45,802 bases of DNA from Syntrophorhabdaceae bacterium (GTDB lineage: Bacteria; Desulfobacterota; Syntrophorhabdia; Syntrophorhabdales; Syntrophorhabdaceae): assembly GCA_036504895.1 (NCBI GenBank), contig DASXUJ010000119.1, forward strand, positions 1-45,802, given 5' to 3'. How positions within the stretch are numbered: position 1 is the stretch's first letter; each line of letters opens with the position of its first letter. This document shows positions 7-17,926 of this stretch, piece after piece. The position numbers and the translations under genes are program-made. The notes under the pieces are model-generated. The model saw only the letters and a program-made list of their open reading frames with translations. It was not told where the DNA came from and ran no database searches.

Positions 7-918
7 TTAAAAATTGTATGCGAAATTTACTCCATACACGAAGTTGCTCGTTACATATCCGTTCGGATTAAAGGATATCCGTTGTCCGGTCGCCGGACTG
101 GTGCCGAAGGTCCTGTTCGCATCCCCTGAAAGAGGGAAATAGTACTGGACGAGAGGCTGAATAATGAATGCCTTGGTCACAGGTATTGTAAAGCCCGCCT
201 TGACCATGCCGTCATGAAGACCTTTATACCTGCTGCCCGTATAAGCGCCCGTGCCGGTCTCGTAAGTCCGCCAGAAATTGCTTTGCCCCGATTCGTACCC
301 GAAGGAGGCGCCGAGATCGAGAGTAATATCCTTCGGCAGGTTGATCGAATGGGCAAAAGAAAGGTTCATATATGTCCCCAGATAAGAGTTGATGTCCTGA
401 TAAACCGTAAAGGTGGGTTTGCCGAGCATGTCGTAGGCGACGGTGAAGAAGAATTCTTCCGTATCCTGCGCATATTTCAGATTGTAGTAGATGTATCCGC
501 CGGTAAGGGCCAGCTTATCGATATTGTAGGTATAGCTCAGGGTAAGGTCTGTCTCGTCCCACCCTTTCTGCCCCTCGTTCGAGAAGACGGCGGTAGTGGT
601 ATTCCTCTGATTTGTATCCATATTGCCCCACAACGTTGCGGTAAAACCTTTGAACGAAGCGGAGAGGGACGGCTGGATCACGAGACCGCTCTTACCGATC
701 TCATATCCACGGAATATATACCTGTTGAGAAAAGCCATGGAAGCGGTGCCCGTAACCTTGTCCTCCGGAGCCTTTTCAGCCGCCTTTTCACCGGCAGGCC
801 TGTCGGACGCCTTCACCTCCGGGAGACCCTGAGGTTCTTTCGCCTCCTGAGCAGAGACGATGCCTGTAAAAAGAGAGAAAACTCCACAAAACAGTGCCAA
901 AAATATAAACCTTTTCAT
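7..918 (-). CDS. Exported outer-membrane beta-barrel protein
   Basis: Predicted 303-residue outer-membrane protein. The N-terminus (MKRFIFLALFCGVFSL, then a small-residue stretch ending SAQE) is a clear Sec signal peptide. A charged Pro/Glu/Lys-rich linker of about 35 residues follows. The rest has alternating aromatic and polar residues typical of amphipathic beta strands and ends in a C-terminal Phe (YNF), as outer-membrane barrels do. The segment with FRGYEIGKSG resembles the start of Gcw_chp/TIGR02001-type barrels, which is a family impression only. I chose the ATG at 918 because AGGAGG sits 6 bases upstream (925-930); an upstream in-frame ATG at 945 adds nine residues that are not signal-like. 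Substrate unknown. It is separated from the sigma-factor gene upstream by a terminator. Confidence 0.72.
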   Translation of the reverse strand: MKRFIFLALFCGVFSLFTGIVSAQEAKEPQGLPEVKASDRPAGEKAAEKAPEDKVTGTASMAFLNRYIFRGYEIGKSGLVIQPSLSASFKGFTATLWGNMDTNQRNTTTAVFSNEGQKGWDETDLTLSYTYNIDKLALTGGYIYYNLKYAQDTEEFFFTVAYDMLGKPTFTVYQDINSYLGTYMNLSFAHSINLPKDITLDLGASFGYESGQSNFWRTYETGTGAYTGSRYKGLHDGMVKAGFTIPVTKAFIIQPLVQYYFPLSGDANRTFGTSPATGQRISFNPNGYVTSNFVYGVNFAYNF

Positions 919-1048
919 CTCACACCTCCTGATTATTCGATTCATTGTCGCCTATTAAACCCTTTTTTTATTACTAAACTTCTTTTCCCGTCCTGTCACC
1001 TCCTTCCATTTTTTTTAAAACTTTCTTTCCTTCCGCCAGAGGCTGATA

Positions 1049-1085
1049 ATAAAAAAAAATGGCGCCCTGCCCTGCAGAACGCCAT
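1049..1085 (-). terminator. Intrinsic terminator after the sigma-like gene
   Basis: On the minus strand ATGGCG pairs with CGCCAT, with an inner CTGC/GCAG stem, followed by an unbroken run of about nine T (the A run at 1051-1059 on the plus strand). It lies downstream of the sigma-like gene and upstream of the outer-membrane gene, so the two are probably separate transcription units. Confidence 0.8.
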
Positions 1086-1168
1086 CGTTTCATTCACATC
1101 AATGTGAGGTTCCCACCCTTTACATCGGGTTATAGCACTACAAGTCGGATCGAGTAGACGCCGGTAAC

Positions 1169-1690
1169 CTAATTCCTCATTTCCTTATTGAACCGGGTAT
1201 ATTTATCTTTAATCCTGTTTCGTATCTTGAGTACCATCACGTGGGAGATCCCGAGCCTCCCCCCTATCTCTCTCATGGACATCCCTTCCATGAAGAGCAT
1301 GAGCACCCTTGTCTCCCTTTCAGTGAAGTACATCTTTTCCGCCACTTCCATCTGCATTCTGCTTTCGAGCTGCTCGAAGGTAAGGTTATCATCCGATGCC
1401 ATGGAATCTTCGAGTCGTCCCCCGTCTTCACCCATGGGGGCATTCAGACTCAGGATGGTGACGTTGTCCTGGACCTTTCGGAGGTAATTCCTCAGATGGA
1501 AGTAACAGCCCTGAAGGATGTAACTGTCCGTTTTGTCTCCCAGCACCCCTTCCCTGTAATCAATCCACAGCCGCGTCAGGGCTTCCTGGTAAAGGTCCTC
1601 GTCATTGAAAAAAGAATAGTGTCCATTGAGTTTTCTGGTGATCCTTTTGAGTGTCGGAGAAATGCGGTGGACCAGACTATCGAATGTCAT
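1169..1690 (-). CDS. Small sigma-70-like factor
   Basis: A 173-residue protein with the layout of a small sigma factor. An N-terminal helical part (residues about 5-75, with EDLYQEALTRLWIDYRE matching sigma region 2 in style) is followed by an acidic linker and a C-terminal helix-turn-helix (about 122-165, FTERETRVLMLFMEGMSMREIGGRLGIS) of the region-4 or LuxR kind. The start at 1690 is chosen because GGGAGG lies 6 bases upstream (1697-1702). The longer reading from 1732 would begin inside the leader terminator and is unlikely. No anti-sigma gene is adjacent. The gene has its own promoter and a structured, terminator-bearing leader, and its upstream neighbour encodes an ANTAR protein. Target promoters are unknown. 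Confidence 0.78.
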   Translation of the reverse strand: MTFDSLVHRISPTLKRITRKLNGHYSFFNDEDLYQEALTRLWIDYREGVLGDKTDSYILQGCYFHLRNYLRKVQDNVTILSLNAPMGEDGGRLEDSMASDDNLTFEQLESRMQMEVAEKMYFTERETRVLMLFMEGMSMREIGGRLGISHVMVLKIRNRIKDKYTRFNKEMRN

Positions 1691-1711
1691 CTTAAGCCTC
1701 CCGAGGACCTC

Positions 1712-1756
1712 AAAATAAAAAAGGCGTCTCAAACCACTTTCGGTGATTTGGACGCC
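1712..1756 (-). terminator. Leader terminator upstream of the sigma-like gene
   Basis: Minus-strand GGCGTC pairs with GACGCC. The inner stem CAAATCAC pairs with GTGGTTTG around a CGAAA loop, and TTTTTTATTTT follows. It lies in the 5' leader, 22 bases before the chosen start codon, so it would stop transcription before the gene unless an antiterminating structure forms. Confidence 0.8.
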
Positions 1757-1806
1757 TGAGTCCTCTTTTCGTGTAGCAGCTCGCGCTGCGAGACCTCAAT
1801 GTCTGC
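1750..1806 (-). promoter_or_regulatory. Candidate ANTAR-type antitermination hairpins
   Basis: Two hairpins precede the terminator on the minus strand. The first (1788-1806) is GC-AGAC, loop ATTGAG, GTCT-(C)-GC; its six-base loop has A at position 1 and G at position 4, the pattern known for ANTAR target RNAs. The second (1750-1763) is GGAC, loop TCAGGC, GTCC; it has G at position 4 but T at position 1. This second hairpin uses the 5' arm of the terminator, so the two cannot coexist. Another hairpin (GCAGC-GCGA-GCTGC) lies between them. ANTAR binding is inference. Confidence 0.45.
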
Positions 1807-1814
1807 TTTGATAT

Positions 1815-1843
1815 AGGATATAGACTAAAATGCCCGATGTCAA
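1815..1843 (-). promoter_or_regulatory. Sigma-70 promoter of the sigma-like gene
   Basis: On the minus strand TTGACA (1838-1843), a 17-base spacer and TATCCT (1815-1820). Predicted start near 1808 gives a leader of about 118 bases that holds the hairpins and terminator described for 1712-1806. Confidence 0.7.
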
Positions 1844-1886
1844 GTTATTCGAGCGGAGGCTTGGTAACCTCCCCCCCCCGGGGGCG

Positions 1887-1955
1887 CTACAATTGGTAGT
1901 CCTCCCTTCGGAAGCCCTACAATTGGTAGTCCTCCCTTCGGAAGCCCTACAATTT
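1887..1955. repeat. Tandem 30-base repeat at the 3' end of the ANTAR gene
   Basis: Two identical 30-base copies (1887-1916 and 1917-1946) are followed by the first 8 bases of a third. Each copy contains CTAC-AATTG-GTAG and CTTCGGAAG, both able to fold. The partial third copy includes the stop codon of the GAF-GAF-ANTAR gene (CTA at 1947-1949), so the array seems to have grown from the gene's last bases. A C9/G5 run lies just beyond (1871-1884). Confidence 0.9.
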
Positions 1956-3179
1956 CCGTTTAAGGTCGGAAGTAAGTATTATGGCTTCGGCGATCTCTTT
2001 CATTGTTTTTCTTAGATCCATGCTCTTCTTGTGGATCTTCTTGTACGCCTCGTCTTCGGTTACCCCCAGTTCCTTCATAAGGATGCCTTTCGCTCGTTCT
2101 ATGGTCTTTCGGGCTTCGAGGGCTTCTCTTGCAGCGAATATCTCCTGGCTCAGGTGGGTATTCTCTATTGCCACGGCAGCCTGGTTTGCCACGGCCTGGA
2201 GGATATCTATCTCCTCTTTTCTGAAGCTGTGCTCGCTTTTCGTATAGCTGTTGATAACACCGATAACCCTGTCCTTGATCATCATGGGTACCGAAAGGAG
2301 CGAGACTATGCCTTCCTTTTTCGCCACATCCGGGTACATGAAGCCCTTTTCCTTGGTCACATCGAGGACGGTTATGGGCTTTTTCTCGAGCACTATCCTT
2401 CCACTCACCGATTGACCCACTTTCAGGTTCGGCTTATTCACGTAGTCCTGGCTCAGGCTCTGGGTCGCCGCAATTACGAGCTCTTCTCTTTTTTCATCAA
2501 GGAGCATGATGGAGCATATCTTCGAATCCATCACCTTGGCCGTCATGGTGACAATAAGCTGAAGGATCTCCTTGAGATAATAATCGGAGACTATCGTGCG
2601 GGAGACCTCTGAAAGCAGATCGAGCTGTCGCGCCTTGCTCACTACCTCATCATAGGTGCGGGCATGGGAGATTGCGCTGCCAAGATACCGGCTGACGGTG
2701 AAAAGCAGATCTATCTGGTGGGACGGATAGGCGTGCTCTTCCCGGTTCCTTATATTCATCACTCCTGCTATCTCATTTTTAGAAAGTATAGGGATGGAGA
2801 GAAAGGCCTCATACTTTTCGTCATCCAGGGCGGCGAATGTTTTGAATCGCTGGTCTTTATACGCCTTCGACGCCAGGGCAAGTGGCTTTTTTTCTTTCGC
2901 TACCCATCCGGTCACGCCTTCCCCGAGCTTAAGCTTCACCATGCCCAGCATCTTGTGGTCCTCATTACTCGATGCGGTAAGGGTCAATTCATCGTTCCCT
3001 TTATCGTAAAGATAGATAAGGCATGAATCGGCCACTATCGTATTCATTACCATATCGACAATTTTTTCAAGAAGCTCGTGAAGCGAAAGATTACTACTGA
3101 TGTCCTGGGCTATTTCATGCAGTATCTTCAACTCCTGCTCTTTTTGCTGCAAGCGCTCCTTCAATTCTTCGGTCATCAT
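1947..3179 (-). CDS. GAF-GAF-ANTAR regulatory protein
   Basis: A predicted cytoplasmic sensor and RNA-binding regulator of 410 residues. A short coiled-coil start (LKERLQQKEQELKILHEI) leads into two GAF domains (about 20-170 and 190-340, each with the ending SVPM/SIPI...GVINSY/GVMNIR). A helical linker and an ANTAR domain follow (about 355-408, ARKTIERAKGILMKELGVTE and then AYKKIHKKSM). ANTAR domains bind twin hexaloop hairpins and prevent transcription termination. The reading frame opens at 3215, but the strong promoter at 3219-3247 would start RNA near 3212, so I prefer the ATG at 3179, or the one three bases later; neither has a strong Shine-Dalgarno. GAF ligands unknown. The downstream sigma-like gene has an attenuator leader that is a natural target. 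Confidence 0.85.
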   Translation of the reverse strand: MMTEELKERLQQKEQELKILHEIAQDISSNLSLHELLEKIVDMVMNTIVADSCLIYLYDKGNDELTLTASSNEDHKMLGMVKLKLGEGVTGWVAKEKKPLALASKAYKDQRFKTFAALDDEKYEAFLSIPILSKNEIAGVMNIRNREEHAYPSHQIDLLFTVSRYLGSAISHARTYDEVVSKARQLDLLSEVSRTIVSDYYLKEILQLIVTMTAKVMDSKICSIMLLDEKREELVIAATQSLSQDYVNKPNLKVGQSVSGRIVLEKKPITVLDVTKEKGFMYPDVAKKEGIVSLLSVPMMIKDRVIGVINSYTKSEHSFRKEEIDILQAVANQAAVAIENTHLSQEIFAAREALEARKTIERAKGILMKELGVTEDEAYKKIHKKSMDLRKTMKEIAEAIILTSDLKRKL

Positions 3180-3218
3180 GTCCGTCTCTTTTTCCTTTTT
3201 TACCTTCAAAGTCATTGA

Positions 3219-3247
3219 CTATAATATCTTTTCCCGCACCTTGTCAA
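3219..3247 (-). promoter_or_regulatory. Promoter of the GAF-GAF-ANTAR gene
   Basis: On the minus strand TTGACA (3242-3247), a 17-base spacer and TTATAG (3219-3224). The expected start near 3212 excludes the upstream ATG at 3215. Confidence 0.65.
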
Positions 3248-3310
3248 ACGATGCGCCCGCGACAAACCCCGAGTATGGCCGGGACCGCCATGACCTTCTT
3301 CTTCCGGGCG

Positions 3311-3979
3311 TCAGGTGGGATATACGGGACGCAGCGTATATTGCCGCTTGATCACGCTTATCTTATTCTTGTTGACGAGGCTTTTTATCATCCTCGAGAC
3401 GGTCTCCCGCGAACAACCGCAGGAGTTGGCAATCTCGACCTGCGTGGGGCCCCGCTCGATGATCACCCTGTCCTTTATTCGTACCCCTGACTTCTCTCCT
3501 ATATCGGCGAGATATCTTAATATCCTGTTTTCAACATTCAGAAAAGCGAGACCTTTAATGCGCTCGTTTGCCGCCCTTAATTTCTTGACCAGTGTCTTGA
3601 GTACATTTACGGTGAAGGCAGGATTGCTCATGAGGAGGTCAACAAAATCCTGCCTCTGTATTACCACGCATTCGGTCTCTTCCGTGGCGATGATATTGGC
3701 AAATCCGGTCAGCTCGTCGAACATGGAGAGCTCGCCGAAAAACCCGCCGGAGCCGATGACATCGAGCACGTATTCTTTGCCTTCTTCATCATAAAGGGAA
3801 ATCTTGACCTTCCCGTGGAGTATGATGTGAAGGGCGGCACGGGTGTCGCCTTCTTCGAATATCACGTGCCCCTTATTGAATTTCCTGATCTTTGCGATTT
3901 TTAAAAGGATGGAAAGCTCACCCCCGGTCAATACGGAAAAGAAACTGGCACCCTGTACTCGCTCAAGATATTCCTTCAT
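3311..3979 (-). CDS. Crp/Fnr-family transcription regulator
   Basis: 222 residues. The N-terminal two thirds is a cyclic-nucleotide-binding-type beta roll (about 12-125; KGHVIFEEGD and FFGELSMFDE are the usual landmarks). The C-terminal part is a Crp helix-turn-helix (about 145-215; PTQVEIANSCGCSRETVSRM is the recognition region). No N-terminal cysteine cluster of the oxygen-sensing Fnr type is visible. The effector-binding position is not an obvious cAMP site, so the signal is unknown. It is the last gene of the his-recA-alaS run, 31 bases after alaS. Confidence 0.88.
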   Translation of the reverse strand: MKEYLERVQGASFFSVLTGGELSILLKIAKIRKFNKGHVIFEEGDTRAALHIILHGKVKISLYDEEGKEYVLDVIGSGGFFGELSMFDELTGFANIIATEETECVVIQRQDFVDLLMSNPAFTVNVLKTLVKKLRAANERIKGLAFLNVENRILRYLADIGEKSGVRIKDRVIIERGPTQVEIANSCGCSRETVSRMIKSLVNKNKISVIKRQYTLRPVYPT

Positions 3980-4010: not shown

Positions 4011-6632
4011 CTATATCAGTTCCCGCGCACTCTCAAGCACCTCTGCTATCTTGTCGCCGGGCACACCGCCCTGAGCAATCTGGGCTCCCCCGCCCCCTTT
4101 ACCCTGATATTTTTCGGTCAATGCTTTAATGATTTTGCCCGCATGAAAGGTTGCCTGCAGGTCGCGACTCACCGCGACGACCAGCATACCTTTCCCTTCT
4201 TCCTGTGACCCCGCCACCACGATGCAGCTTTTTACCCTGTCCCTGATCACATCCGTTACTTTCCGGAGATCGTCCGCTTTCCCGTTCACCACATTCATGG
4301 ATATCAGTTTTACTCCATTCTTCTCGTATGCGGTAGTGATGGCCTCATCCACCCGGGAAAGGATGATCTCCTCCTTCAGACGCTCGATCTCTTTTTCCTT
4401 ACGGTCGAGCTCGCCTAAAATCGATTCCACCCTCTCCTGCACCCTTTCGGTCTCCACATTGAGTGAGCCTGCAATCGACCGGATAGCGCCGTCAAGCTTT
4501 CTCTTGTACCGGATCGCCCCTTTTCCGGTAGCAGCTTCGATCCTCCGCACCCCTGAAGCGAGCGAGCCCTCGCTGATCACATAGAAACTGCCTATCTCGC
4601 CCGTATTACGCACATGGGTTCCCCCGCATAGTTCCACGCTGAAATCGCCAATTTTGACTACCCTGACCGTCTCCCCGTACTTCTCTTCGAAGAGCGCGGT
4701 AGCGCCTTCCTTTATTGCTTCCTCACGGTTTCTTACCTCCGTGGCAACTCCGTCACATCCCATGATCCTTTCGTTGACGATATCCTCCACCTTTGCCAAT
4801 TCGAAGGCATCGAGCCCCTGGAAATGGGTGAAATCGAATCTCAGACGGTCCTTTTCCACGAGAGAGCCCGACTGTTTTACGTGATCGCCCAAGACCTGCC
4901 TCAGGGCATACTGAAGGAGATGGGTGGCCGTATGGTTTCTCGCCACACTGCGCCGTTTTTCCCTGTCTACCTCCAGGTTAACCTTCTGCCCCCTTGCGAG
5001 CGAACCTTCCTCAACGGTCACGCCATGGGAAAAGAGATCGGCCTTGACCTTTTTCACTTCCCGTATTATCGCTTTTCCGCCCGCCCAACTCACCAGCCCC
5101 TCGTCTTCAACCTGCCCGCCGCTCTCCGCGTAAAAAGGAGTGGTATCAAGGAAAATCTCTCCCTCTTCTCCCCGGGCGAGCTCCTGAACAGGTTTTTCCT
5201 CTTTCAGAATCGAGAGCACCGTGGCGTCTTTCACGCCGAGCCTCTCATATCCCACGAATTCACTTGTAATGCCTTCTTTAAGAACGGATATCTGGCCAAC
5301 GCCCAGGGTCTCGCCTTTGAGCCTGGACCCCACTCTCGACCTCGTTTTCTGATCTTCCAGCGCCCGCTCGAACCCCTCCATATCCATGGTGAGTCCGTCT
5401 TCTTCCGCCATCTCCTGGGTGATATCGAGGGGGAAACCATAGGTGTCATAAAGCTTGTAGATGAGGTCGCCCGGTATGGTGCGCTCCCCCTTCTTCTTTA
5501 TCTCTTCCTGGATTTCCCCATAGACCTTCATTCCCACGTTGAGGGTCTCCATGAACCTTTCCTCTTCTCCTCTTATCACGCGGGCAATATAGGGATGGTT
5601 ATTCTTCACGTCGGGATATACATCTCCCATAAGGTCGACCACGGCGCCGGACAGACCGAAGAGGAACTCTTTCTCGATGCCTATCTTCTTTCCGTACCTG
5701 AGCGCCCTTCTGATGATTCTCCGGAGCACGTAAGCCCTGCCGTCCTTTCCGGGCAGGACCCCGTCGTTGATGATAAAGGTGGCACCCCTTGCATGATCGG
5801 CAATAACCCTGATTGCCGTGTCGACGGCTTCGTCTTCTCCGTAAATCCGCCGGGACATGTCTTCGATCTTCCTGATGAGAGGGAGAAAGAGGTCCGTCTC
5901 ATAATTGCCGATCTTGCCCTGGAGTACGCTCGTGACCCTTTCGAAGCCCATGCCCGTGTCTATGGACGGCCTGGGCAGCTTCTTCATCTCCCCGTCGCTG
6001 GTGCGCTCGAATTCCATGAAGACAAGGTTCCATATTTCCAGATATCGGTCACAATCGCACCCCACCCTGCACTCGGGCCTCTTGCACCCTACGCTTTCAC
6101 CGAGGTCATAGATGATCTCCGAGCAGGGGCCGCAAGGGCCTTCGTCGCCCATGGACCAAAAATTATCCTTTTCTCCGAGCCTGACGATCCTCTCCTTCCG
6201 GACCCCGATCGATTCCCAGATCGCGGCGGCATCGTCATCTTCCTCGTAGACGGTAACCCACAGCTTTTCCTCATCGAGCTTAATGACGCGGGTGAGGAAT
6301 TCCCAGGCATAGGCGATCGCCTCTTTCTTGAAATAATCACCGAAGGAAAAATTGCCCAGCATCTCGAAAAAGGTATGGTGACGGAGTGTTTTCCCTATGT
6401 TATCGAGGTCGTTATGCTTTCCTCCGGCGCGCACGCACTTCTGGCACGTCGTCGCCCTATGATAATCCCTTTTCTCTATGCCCAGGAAGAGGTTCTTGAA
6501 CTGCACCATGCCCGCGTTCACAAAAAGCAGCGTGGGGTCCTTCTCCGGCACCAATGAGGCGCTCGGCACGATTGTATGCCCCTTTCCGGCAAAATAATCG
6601 AGAAATATTCTTCTTATCTCTTTCGAATTCAC
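4011..6632 (-). CDS. alaS: Alanine--tRNA ligase
   Basis: Attaches alanine to tRNA-Ala and edits mischarged Ser/Gly. At 873 residues it has the full family length. The class II catalytic core fills roughly the first 240 residues (TCQKCVRAGGKHNDLDNIGK, motif 2 region FFEMLGNFSFGDYF). A cysteine-rich patch (CKRPECRVGCDCDR) follows, then the tRNA-recognition region. The editing domain has HTATH near residue 565 and CGGTH near 665 as zinc ligands, and the C-terminal DHHA1 domain has GGGGAQIAQGG. The start is GTG and shares its first base with the last base of the recA stop (TAGTG), which points to translational coupling with recA. Confidence 0.97.
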   Translation of the reverse strand: MNSKEIRRIFLDYFAGKGHTIVPSASLVPEKDPTLLFVNAGMVQFKNLFLGIEKRDYHRATTCQKCVRAGGKHNDLDNIGKTLRHHTFFEMLGNFSFGDYFKKEAIAYAWEFLTRVIKLDEEKLWVTVYEEDDDAAAIWESIGVRKERIVRLGEKDNFWSMGDEGPCGPCSEIIYDLGESVGCKRPECRVGCDCDRYLEIWNLVFMEFERTSDGEMKKLPRPSIDTGMGFERVTSVLQGKIGNYETDLFLPLIRKIEDMSRRIYGEDEAVDTAIRVIADHARGATFIINDGVLPGKDGRAYVLRRIIRRALRYGKKIGIEKEFLFGLSGAVVDLMGDVYPDVKNNHPYIARVIRGEEERFMETLNVGMKVYGEIQEEIKKKGERTIPGDLIYKLYDTYGFPLDITQEMAEEDGLTMDMEGFERALEDQKTRSRVGSRLKGETLGVGQISVLKEGITSEFVGYERLGVKDATVLSILKEEKPVQELARGEEGEIFLDTTPFYAESGGQVEDEGLVSWAGGKAIIREVKKVKADLFSHGVTVEEGSLARGQKVNLEVDREKRRSVARNHTATHLLQYALRQVLGDHVKQSGSLVEKDRLRFDFTHFQGLDAFELAKVEDIVNERIMGCDGVATEVRNREEAIKEGATALFEEKYGETVRVVKIGDFSVELCGGTHVRNTGEIGSFYVISEGSLASGVRRIEAATGKGAIRYKRKLDGAIRSIAGSLNVETERVQERVESILGELDRKEKEIERLKEEIILSRVDEAITTAYEKNGVKLISMNVVNGKADDLRKVTDVIRDRVKSCIVVAGSQEEGKGMLVVAVSRDLQATFHAGKIIKALTEKYQGKGGGGAQIAQGGVPGDKIAEVLESARELI

Positions 6633-7645
6633 TATTCACCCTTCTTCATTTCATAATGTGCGAGGATCTTCGCTTCGACCTCCTGAGCCACGGACTCGTG
6701 CTTCTTGAGAAAATCCTTGGCATTCTCCCTTCCCTGGCCGATCCTCGTCTCACCATAGGAGTACCATGCGCCCAGCTTCTCCACCACCCCTGCCTCGACC
6801 CCAAGATCAATCAGGTCCCCTTCCTTCGATATGCCGTAGCCGAAGATAATATCAAATTCCACTTCCCGGAAAGGCGGGGCAACCTTATTCTTCACGATCT
6901 TTACCCGGGTCCTGCTTCCCACCACTTCCTGACCGTCTTTAATGGCCGCTATCCGCCGGATATCGAGTCTCACCGACGCATAAAATTTAAGGGCATTTCC
7001 GCCAGTGGTAGTTTCCGGATTACCGAACATGACCCCGATCTTCTGCCTGATCTGATTAATGAAAATGACCGTGGTCATTGATTTGCTGATCGTGGCCGTG
7101 AGCTTTCTCAGCGCCTGGGACATGAGCCTCGCCTGAAGCCCCATATGGGCGTCTCCCATCTCGCCTTCAATCTCCGCCTTGGGCACGAGGGCCGCCACCG
7201 AGTCGACAACGATGATGTCCACCGCCCCGCTTCTCACGAGTATCTCAGTGATCTCCAGGGCCTGCTCGCCCGTATCGGGCTGGGAGATGAGGAGATCGTC
7301 CGTATTGACCCCGATCCGCTTCGCGTACGCCACGTCGAGGGCATGCTCCGCGTCGATGAAGGCCGCGGTCCCTCCCGTCTTCTGGATCTCGCTTACTACT
7401 TCGAGAGCGAGGGTTGTCTTGCCCGACGCCTCGGGACCATAAATCTCGACGACCCTGCCTCTCGGAAGGCCTCCGACGCCAAGGGCCATATCAAGGGCGA
7501 TCGACCCTGTGGAGACCACGGGTATGGCTTCAATAGGCTTTTCACCAAGCTTCATTATCGAGCCCTTACCGAAAAGCTTCTCGATCTGGGTGACCGCCAT
7601 ATCGATGGCTCTTCCTTTGTTACCCTCTTTCGCCTCTTCTTTCAC
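6632..7645 (-). CDS. recA: Recombinase RecA
   Basis: DNA strand-exchange protein and LexA co-protease, 337 residues. The Walker A motif GPEASGKTT is at 70-78, and [11 protein letters not shown] is the Walker B region. Loop L2 ([18 protein letters not shown]) is intact. The C-terminal acidic tail is short. The start is GTG with GGAGG a few bases upstream. No recX lies between recA and alaS. I saw no LexA-type operator directly upstream; the gene sits inside a long operon, 3 bases after thpR. Confidence 0.97.
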
Positions 7646-15838: not shown

Positions 15839-17926
15839 TTATGCAATATCGAAAACATTGAGGCCGTGAGACCACCTTTTAGCAAAGATCGCCTTGATCT
15901 CCTCCGCTTCAGGATGGGACCACTCTTTCAGGGCCTCCGCGGCTAATTCGCGGGCAAGGGCCATCGTTTCCCCGTCACGGCGGAGGTCTCCTATCCGGAA
16001 ACCGGTGAGACCCGATTGCCTTAGCCCCAACATCTCTCCCGCCCCCCTGATCTTCAGATCCTCCTCGGCAATCAGGAAGCCGTCATTCGTTTTGGCAAGG
16101 ATTTTGAGGCGGCGCGACGCCTGCTCCGTTCGTTTCGCTTGGGTTAGGAGAAGGCACTTCGAGGGAAAGGTGCTTCTTCCGACCCTCCCCCTGAGCTGGT
16201 GCAACTGGGAAAGACCGAACCTTTCCGCATGTTCTACGGCAATCACGGTGGCGTTCGGCACGTCGATTCCGACTTCAACCACGGTCGTGCAGACCAGCAC
16301 GTCCACCTCTCCGGCCTTGAAAGCGGACATGATCTGCTCCTTCTCCCGGGGTTTCATTTTCCCGTGGAGAAGGCCTATCCTTCTGCCGGGAAAGAGGGTC
16401 TCCGCGTGGGAAGCCATGGCCGTGGCATCGAGAAGGTCCACTTTTTCGGACTGTTCCACGAGGGGATAGACCATGTATGCCTGCCGGCCCTTCTCAAGCT
16501 CGGCCTCTATCATGCGATACGCTTCAGACCGCAGGGAATCGGGCAGGACATGGGTCGCGATCCGGTGCCTGCCCCGGGGGAGCTCGTCGAGGATCGACAC
16601 GTCGAGGTCTCCATGGAGGACCAGGGAAAGGGTTCTCGGGATTGGGGTGGCGCTCATCACGAGGACATGGGGCATGAACCCTTTCTGCTTCAGGGTCCTC
16701 CTCTGGCTCACGCCGAACCTGTGCTGCTCGTCCACCACCACGAGCCCGAGCCGCGTCAGAGTGACATCCTTTTGCAGAAGGGCGTGGGTACCGATCAGGA
16801 TGAAGGACTTTTCGGACTCCATTCGCCTGAGTGTCTCCTCCCTCTCCTTTCCCATGTCGCCCCTCAGGTAAAAGACCGGCACCCCTGTCTCCTCGAACAT
16901 CCTGTGGACCGTCAGGTAATGCTGCTCGGCCAGTATCTCCGTGGGCGCCATAAAGGCCGCCTGCAACCCGTCTCCTACCGCAATACAGGATGCGAGGATG
17001 GCGAGAATCGTCTTGCCGGAGCCCACGTCCCCCTGGAGCAGGCGGTTCATGGGGCGCAACCCCGCCATGTCTCCTTCTATTTCTTCCAAGACCCTTTGTT
17101 GTGCGGTGGTGAGATCGAAGGTGAGGTTTCCAAGGGTCCCCCTGTAAAGGTCATTATTGATGTCAAGCCTGATGCCCGGAAATCTTCTCCCCTCTTCCCG
17201 CTCAAGGAGCACTGCCGCTTGGAAAAGGAAGAATTCTTCTATAATGAGCCTTTTTCGCTCGACAAAATCTTCATCCGATAATGGAGGAGGGACATGAGGG
17301 AAATGGAGCGCTTCCAGCGCCTCCCTGAGTGACGGCAGTCTGTGGCGACTCTCGATTCCAACGGGTATGAGGCTTTCCAGAGAGGCGCCATGGTCCTCGA
17401 AGGCTTTCTTCACCAGTCTCTTTAATATTCCCCGTTTAACCCCCTCGATCTCCGGATAGAGTGGGATCACGGCCTTGTACTCTCGCGACTCCTCCTCGTT
17501 TTCAAGTGGCATCACATCGGGATGAACGATCTGTCTTTGCGCGCCGAAACGCGTCACTTTGCCCGATATCAGGAGAAGGGTGCCCTTCGAGGCGCTTTCC
17601 TTGAGATAACGAGGGGGATGGTGGAACCATTTCAGGCAGATCGTACCCGTATCGTCCGTCACCACCGCCTGATACCCGGCTTTTCCGCCCCTGCGGAAAG
17701 AGAGGGAGCCCTGGGTGAGCACTCGAGCGACAATGAGTGCCGGCTCTCCTTCTTCGATCTCCGAAATGGGCCTTATCTCCCTCCTGTCCTCGTACCTGGT
17801 GGGCAGGAAAAAGAGGAGGTCCTCAATTGTATGAATGGCCCTGCCTGCAAGTCCACGGGTTATGGCAGGTCCTACCCCCTTGAGGTCGCTCACGGGCCGG
17901 TCGAGATTTTCATTTCTCTTTCGCAT
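15839..17926 (-). CDS. recG: ATP-dependent DNA helicase RecG
   Basis: Branch-migration helicase that regresses stalled forks, 695 residues. The N-terminal wedge/OB domain comes first (LKGVGPAITRGL, then LFFLPTRYEDRR). The helicase motor follows with LLQGDVGSGKTILA (Walker A), VVDEQHRFGV (DEQH box), MSATPIPRTL and QLRGRVGRS (motif VI). The C-terminal RecG hook region contains LKIRGAGEMLG. The ATG at 17926 is the first possible start, since an in-frame stop lies at 17936-17938. It has no Shine-Dalgarno and an AT-rich TATATT-like sequence shortly upstream, so a short-leader or leaderless mRNA is possible. Divergent from the macro-domain gene. Confidence 0.96.
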   Translation of the reverse strand: MRKRNENLDRPVSDLKGVGPAITRGLAGRAIHTIEDLLFFLPTRYEDRREIRPISEIEEGEPALIVARVLTQGSLSFRRGGKAGYQAVVTDDTGTICLKWFHHPPRYLKESASKGTLLLISGKVTRFGAQRQIVHPDVMPLENEEESREYKAVIPLYPEIEGVKRGILKRLVKKAFEDHGASLESLIPVGIESRHRLPSLREALEALHFPHVPPPLSDEDFVERKRLIIEEFFLFQAAVLLEREEGRRFPGIRLDINNDLYRGTLGNLTFDLTTAQQRVLEEIEGDMAGLRPMNRLLQGDVGSGKTILAILASCIAVGDGLQAAFMAPTEILAEQHYLTVHRMFEETGVPVFYLRGDMGKEREETLRRMESEKSFILIGTHALLQKDVTLTRLGLVVVDEQHRFGVSQRRTLKQKGFMPHVLVMSATPIPRTLSLVLHGDLDVSILDELPRGRHRIATHVLPDSLRSEAYRMIEAELEKGRQAYMVYPLVEQSEKVDLLDATAMASHAETLFPGRRIGLLHGKMKPREKEQIMSAFKAGEVDVLVCTTVVEVGIDVPNATVIAVEHAERFGLSQLHQLRGRVGRSTFPSKCLLLTQAKRTEQASRRLKILAKTNDGFLIAEEDLKIRGAGEMLGLRQSGLTGFRIGDLRRDGETMALARELAAEALKEWSHPEAEEIKAIFAKRWSHGLNVFDIA

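Follow-up and report, generated by a model that had tools for sequence, protein, structure and literature searches.

A putative ANTAR-controlled leader before a sigma-like gene in Syntrophorhabdaceae, and a likely feed-forward circuit acting on nitrogen genes

The closest described system is that of EutV. Its Tyr164 stacks on the fourth base of the target hexaloop (G4) and the first base (A1) is without direct contact (PMC8934654); mutation of A1 reduced induction, and the closing AC/GU pairs of the first hairpin, P1, were important in vivo (PMC3369931). The linker between P1 and the second hairpin, P2, is 5-12 nt in eut leaders, and a longer linker abolished antitermination by EutV (PMC3369931, PMC8934654). 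The covariance search of Ramesh 2012 placed ANTAR-target RNAs upstream of genes for PII, ammonium transporters and glutamine/glutamate synthase (PMC3369931). Actinobacterial ANTAR-target RNAs are located on mRNAs of transcription factors (LacI, TetR and others), where control is mostly translational (PMC8164766). The Geobacter nif antitermination cascades, cited in the same paper, are a possible precedent for the locus described here. This locus lies in a stretch of 45,802 nucleotides (contig DASXUJ010000119.1 of a Syntrophorhabdaceae bacterium), the whole of which is called the window.

The window locus and its sigma leader

The minus strand of the window carries, in order, recA, alaS, a Crp-type regulator gene, a GAF-GAF-ANTAR gene, a sigma70-like promoter, a leader, a sigma-like gene and a porin-like gene. 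The GAF-GAF-ANTAR regulator gene (3215-1947, minus) matches Pfam GAF_2 (6e-38) and ANTAR (1.3e-20), the ANTAR domain scoring 73.4 bits against a curated cut-off of 27.3. When aligned to EutV (6wsh) this domain retains the RNA-contacting residues R142, K143, K149, E160, Y164, M172 and R175 (EutV numbering); R168, N173 and R177 are changed. We note that a 30-base direct repeat, ATTGTAGGGCTTCCGAAGGGAGGACTACCA, is present in at least two copies at 1865-1955, in the interval that separates the ANTAR stop codon from the sigma promoter.

The promoter, TTGACA-17-TATCCT (1843-1815, minus), matches the consensus at 10 of 12 positions and is followed by a leader of about 115 bases. Leader folding locates three hairpins on the minus strand: P1, AGAC-AUUGAG-GUCU (1804-1791); a linker hairpin with a four-base loop, GCAGC GCGA GCUGC (1789-1776); and the putative antiterminator P2, GGAC-UCAGGC-GUCC (1763-1750). 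P2 overlaps the 5′ arm of an intrinsic terminator (stem 1757-1722, U tract 1722-1712, minus; -21.2 kcal/mol), which is also found in relatives. A simple scan called no terminator in the leader, probably because of the single bulge in the stem. Both loops have G4; A1 is present in P1 only, P2 having U1. The P1-P2 linker is 27 nt, 14 of them inside the linker hairpin. A pair between A1 and U6, or between G1 and C6, could close some of the hexaloops into tetraloops.

The leader fold is more stable than its shuffles (z -3.05). None of 20,000 dinucleotide-shuffled leaders contained both AC-N3-G-N2-GU hexaloops, each with two further Watson-Crick pairs, and 0.6% contained at least one. Neither the window nor six relatives contained an Rfam family at gathering cut-offs, and no riboswitch was matched; a relaxed E value yielded sub-threshold sRNA matches only (window 900-2000). 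The exact dual-hexaloop pattern is met six times across the genome. One match is the window leader; the other five look like chance.

The anatomy of the leader is thus shown at the level of sequence. A preliminary description of the window had already proposed a GAF-GAF-ANTAR gene followed on the same strand by a sigma-like gene with its own promoter, a leader of about 118 bases ending in an intrinsic terminator, and an ATTGAG hairpin (A1, G4) preceding a TCAGGC hairpin (G4 only) that uses the 5′ arm of the terminator. All of these claims held.

Leaders, covariation and linkage in relatives

Homologues were gathered with the sigma protein alone (66 loci, mostly from Omnitrophota with some from Desulfobacterota and Elusimicrobia), and their choice was therefore independent of the leader. 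A sigma match, mostly strong, is present in 28 of 60 genomes close to that of the window. Hexaloop-terminator leaders were found at sigma loci of Syntrophorhabdia relatives, of Omnitrophota and of one Elusimicrobia genome. In 57 of 65 loci the 330 nt preceding the leader-controlled gene contain a paired AC-N3-G-N2-GU hexaloop, compared with 8% of random windows; two or more are present in 38 of 65 loci, compared with 2%. Terminator-overlapping hairpins with a six-base loop were counted without selecting for loop bases or closing pairs. They occur in 89 of 123 sigma/nadE leaders (72%), in 37% of the downstream leaders discussed below and at 46 of 569 other terminators in the same loci (8%). G4 is present in 82 of the 89 sigma/nadE hexaloops, and AC/GU closing pairs likewise in 82.

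Pairing outside the anchored core was assessed on unique sequences with 1000 shuffles that held the core fixed; the next pair was formed in 98% (shuffle mean 54%, maximum 66%) and 92% (mean 46%, maximum 57%). Several Watson-Crick types are observed at the outer hexaloop pairs, and pair counts on separate alignments agree. The P2 stem is 98.8% paired across 41 leaders. The sequences are related and not independent, and the shuffle counts are therefore not probabilities. It could be argued that the terminators are merely constitutive and the hexaloops by-products of palindromic stems, devoid of any regulatory role. P2 does share its 3′ arm and the loop bases GGC with the terminator, which thus explains part of its conservation. 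However, the 5′ arm of P2 and the entire P1, a separate hairpin, are not part of the terminator and still covary, the other terminators of the same loci rarely have such hairpins (counts above), and ANTAR genes co-occur with the locus. We regard the constitutive explanation as extremely unlikely and retain the ANTAR-controlled attenuator; conservation and covariation of the hairpins are shown, their function is inferred.

The relatives also place the unusual features of the window leader. Omnitrophota sigma leaders usually have two modules in series, GAC-ANNGAN-GUC with T1 followed by GGAC-UNNGGC-GUCC with T2; in both, the 3′ arm of the hexaloop hairpin doubles as the 5′ arm of the terminator. 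The linker hairpin of the window occupies the position of T1. P1 is identical in L003, and its loop is AUUGAU in L004 and L005. Within the order, P2 is present in 26 of 26 leaders, and canonical P1 is intact in six and missing in 20. The P2 loop is mostly UNNGGC in relatives; U1 is usual in Omnitrophota and A1 is found in 16 of the 26 leaders of the order. In genus g5, which is without P1, the linker hairpin has turned into AGC-hexaloop-GCU with A1 and G4, located 4-15 bases before a P2 with the loop AAGGGC, an arrangement close to that of E. faecalis. In genus g9, P2 alone remains.

The preliminary description had looked to relatives for conserved hexaloops with compensatory changes, and both were found, far above controls. 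Its hope of a conserved A1 and G4 was met only in part: G4 is nearly invariant, A1 is not conserved in P2, and few leaders of the order keep a canonical P1 (6/26). Its worry over the departure of the second loop from the consensus is answered in that U1 is a real, conserved property of P2, and the four-base-loop hairpin it saw as a complication sits where Omnitrophota have T1. One correction is needed: most Desulfobacterota relatives have the same leader before a nadE-sigma pair, and the window genome has lost that nadE.

The order ANTAR, promoter, leader, nadE, sigma is observed in 21 of 21 fetched loci of the window's family and order, and there the leader would therefore control both genes together. 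The window genome has only distant nadE homologues (27-31% identity), and its leader directly precedes the sigma gene. Of the 42 genomes that have the locus, 39 contain an ANTAR gene, as against none of 14 control genomes. This linkage is shown, and it bears on a further possibility, that the leader answers to some other controller (a REC-ANTAR protein, the ribosome or a metabolite) and not to the adjacent GAF-ANTAR protein. The genome does encode a second ANTAR protein, a REC-ANTAR response regulator on contig 67, and binding by the GAF-ANTAR protein is without experimental data. Against this, each of the 21 relatives fetched has the GAF-ANTAR gene adjoining the leader, many Omnitrophota loci have it nearby, most genomes with the locus have a single ANTAR gene, and Rfam matched no riboswitch (a comparison that left out short leader peptides). 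Another controller is in our judgement very improbable, and the adjacent GAF-GAF-ANTAR protein remains the presumed one.

Some further observations were made at these loci. The REC-ANTAR gene and an adjoining large sensor kinase-like gene lie at 259-822 and 819-3641 of locus L120 (minus), with a possible hexaloop-terminator near minus-strand position 1235. In the Elusimicrobia locus L051 (2309) a hexaloop-terminator is located upstream of the ANTAR gene itself, which suggests ANTAR autoregulation there. A conserved TACAGCGTTGTAGC-like dyad about 140 bases upstream of sigma is seen in L027, L028, L029 and L033; in many sigma leaders of Omnitrophota, transcription is expected to start close to this dyad.

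The sigma-like protein and the promoter motif

The gene after the leader (1690-1169, minus) encodes a putative ECF-like sigma factor of 173 aa, starting at ATG 1690 with GGGAGG 7 nt upstream. A TTG start at 1732, given in the list of open reading frames, was rejected: this codon falls within the terminator, and a Shine-Dalgarno sequence precedes ATG 1690. The protein matches the NCBIfam sigma70-ECF superfamily over residues 3-163 (40.7 bits, 1.7e-10), just below the cut-off of 42.9. Among 15 homologues, Pfam Sigma70_r4 is matched in 13 and Sigma70_r2 in five. The best matches of a PDB profile search were FliA and another sigma factor, in region 4. The AlphaFold prediction is poor (pLDDT 61), with weak structural matches, and these were therefore not taken as proof of sigma identity. 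No anti-sigma gene was recognised beside the gene. The idea that the protein replaces sigma54 was dropped, since sigma54 is present in the genome.

Directly after the sigma stop codon lies a putative sigma-type promoter, GTTACC-N17-ACTTGTA (1168-1139, minus), followed by a second hexaloop-terminator leader, that of the porin gene. Folding and covariation locate its P1′, UCAC-AUUGAU-GUGA, at 1107-1094; across 44 leaders this helix is 97.7% paired, and three of its four pairs have changed on both sides. P2′, AAC-GAUGGC-GUU (1089-1078), overlaps an intrinsic terminator (stem 1085-1059, U tract 1059-1051, -18.5 kcal/mol), all on the minus strand. The outer-membrane porin-like gene (945-7, minus; start probably ATG 918) encodes a signal peptide and is the last before the contig end; L004 has a similar gene after sigma, before amt and PII. 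Most relatives likewise have this promoter and these leaders after sigma. Neither the site nor this leader had been seen in the preliminary description, to which they are added.

The exact motif has two copies in the 4.35 Mb genome, one in the window and one before amt on contig 85, the latter with three hexaloops and two terminators behind it. The genes of contig 85 include amt and PII, each in two copies, and glutamine synthetase III. The second amt is preceded by GTTAAC-N17-ACTCGTA and the synthetase gene by GTTAAC-N17-ACTTGTA (L133, about 4400-4510 and 6830-6945); in this genome the leaders of these two have dual hexaloops but no clear intrinsic terminator. In other genomes the motif is found upstream of amt, porins and glutamine synthetases I and III, with PII among the downstream genes. 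Of 112 copies at related loci, 101 have a 17-base spacer. Among 297 genomes drawn evenly from the phylum, eight exact sites fall in seven strong-sigma genomes and eight in the other 290. The motif is shown, as is its concentration in genomes that carry sigma; that it goes with the sigma gene rests on association only, and genus g9 is an exception, having sigma and no exact 17-spaced sites.

Alternatively, the ANTAR attenuator could be real and the sigma-like protein a LuxR-type helix-turn-helix activator, with GTTACC and ACTTGTA as its operators. GerE is the top Pfam match of the protein and is matched in 15 of 15 homologues, and the full-length sigma scores fall just short of the cut-off. Against this, the sigma70-ECF match extends over residues 3-163, sigma regions 2 and 4 are recognised in several homologues, sigma factors head the PDB profile search, and the unlike half-sites with their fixed 17-base spacing resemble -35 and -10 boxes. 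An activator thus appears unlikely, and we continue to treat the protein as a probable sigma factor. A related site with the same 17-base spacing, GTTACC-N17-ACTTGAC (1868-1839, minus), overlaps the TTGACA box of the vegetative promoter upstream of the sigma leader. It is shared with L003, of the same genus, and absent from every other sigma locus scanned. Sigma autoregulation in the window genus is a possibility that this site raises from sequence alone.

A covariance model of the downstream leaders gave three matches in this genome. The match in the porin leader (1056-1117) concerns a window sequence that was in the training set; one match outside training (5e-7) precedes FlpD and DUF5981 genes of C1 metabolism. 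Most sigma-less relatives gave no match or only near-threshold ones, except G012, which may reflect an assembly gap. We note that the hexaloop-terminator leader of FlpD/DUF5981 (methylene-THF reductase) lies behind a TTGACA-type promoter (L192, contig 85, about 17658-17729) and that L190 and L193 have a similar one. It is possible that ANTAR acts on C1 metabolism too.

The proposed circuit and its relation to known systems

In the proposed circuit the GAF-GAF-ANTAR protein would sense a nitrogen-related signal through its GAF domains; the signal is inferred, its nitrogen theme from the target genes. The active protein would bind the hexaloops of the nascent leader RNA. By holding P2 it would make the 5′ arm of the terminator unavailable, and polymerase would read on into the sigma gene (nadE-sigma in relatives). 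The sigma factor would then start transcription of porin, ammonium transporter/PII and glutamine synthetase genes at GTTACC-N17-ACTTGTA. Since many of the resulting transcripts begin with hexaloop-terminator leaders of their own, the same ANTAR protein would be needed a second time. The predicted outcome is a coherent feed-forward, or two-key, gate on nitrogen uptake, possibly with sigma autoregulation in the window genus.

This is our best reading and we consider it likely (about 0.8), with ANTAR binding, antitermination, the pairing of sigma factor and promoter, and the signal all inferred. Several points weigh against it: U1 of P2, the 27-nt linker, the loss of P1 in most leaders, the lack of sites in g9, the sub-cut-off sigma scores and poor predicted fold, the second ANTAR protein, the leaders of glutamine synthetase III and the second amt without clear terminator, and the loops that could close into tetraloops. 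The preliminary reading of an ANTAR-controlled attenuator is supported overall, by inference from sequence alone, and its guess of a signal-to-RNA-to-sigma cascade gains support, without biochemical data, from the conserved promoter-like motif, which is found after sigma as well as upstream of amt, porin and glutamine synthetase genes. We also lean, with less confidence, towards a bolder reading in which one ANTAR protein gates a dedicated nitrogen sigma factor together with its operons in Syntrophorhabdia, Omnitrophota and Elusimicrobia, through serial modules in Omnitrophota.

Such a circuit would join RNA antitermination and alternative sigma factors, usually studied apart, in the control of nitrogen genes. 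The defined promoter and RNA motifs allow regulon prediction from sequence, in lineages represented here almost only by metagenome assemblies. The locus gives a test of ANTAR action on single, dual and serial hexaloop-terminators, U1 loops included, and, with no adjacent anti-sigma gene recognised, it may exemplify a sigma factor controlled by antitermination.

In the literature searched, which left out most subscription journals, we found no sigma factor under ANTAR control and no common alternative promoter followed by ANTAR leaders. The leaders resemble those of EutV/EutW in Enterococcus faecalis in their G4 hexaloops, mostly with A1, in AC/GU closing pairs as in P1 of eutP, in the overlap of P2 with an intrinsic terminator and in the key ANTAR residues retained (PMC3369931, PMC8934654). 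They differ in that the sensor is GAF-GAF and not a response regulator, P2 usually has U1, the linker is longer, the target is a sigma factor, and the Omnitrophota hexaloops each have their own terminator. The ANTAR targets of Ramesh 2012 include the same kind of genes and share the nitrogen theme, but no sigma layer or shared alternative promoter is reported there (PMC3369931, relevant passages). As in the actinobacterial system, the ANTAR RNA lies on the mRNA of a regulator of further genes; the word 'sigma' is absent from PMC8164766. NasR and AmiR (PMC3369931, PMC8934654) likewise combine leader antitermination by ANTAR with nitrogen-related genes; unlike the circuit proposed here, they have single operon targets and no sigma factor. 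The parts are already known, amt, PII and glutamine synthetase genes having been predicted as ANTAR targets in other bacteria, and it is their proposed coupling to a sigma factor that is new in the literature searched.
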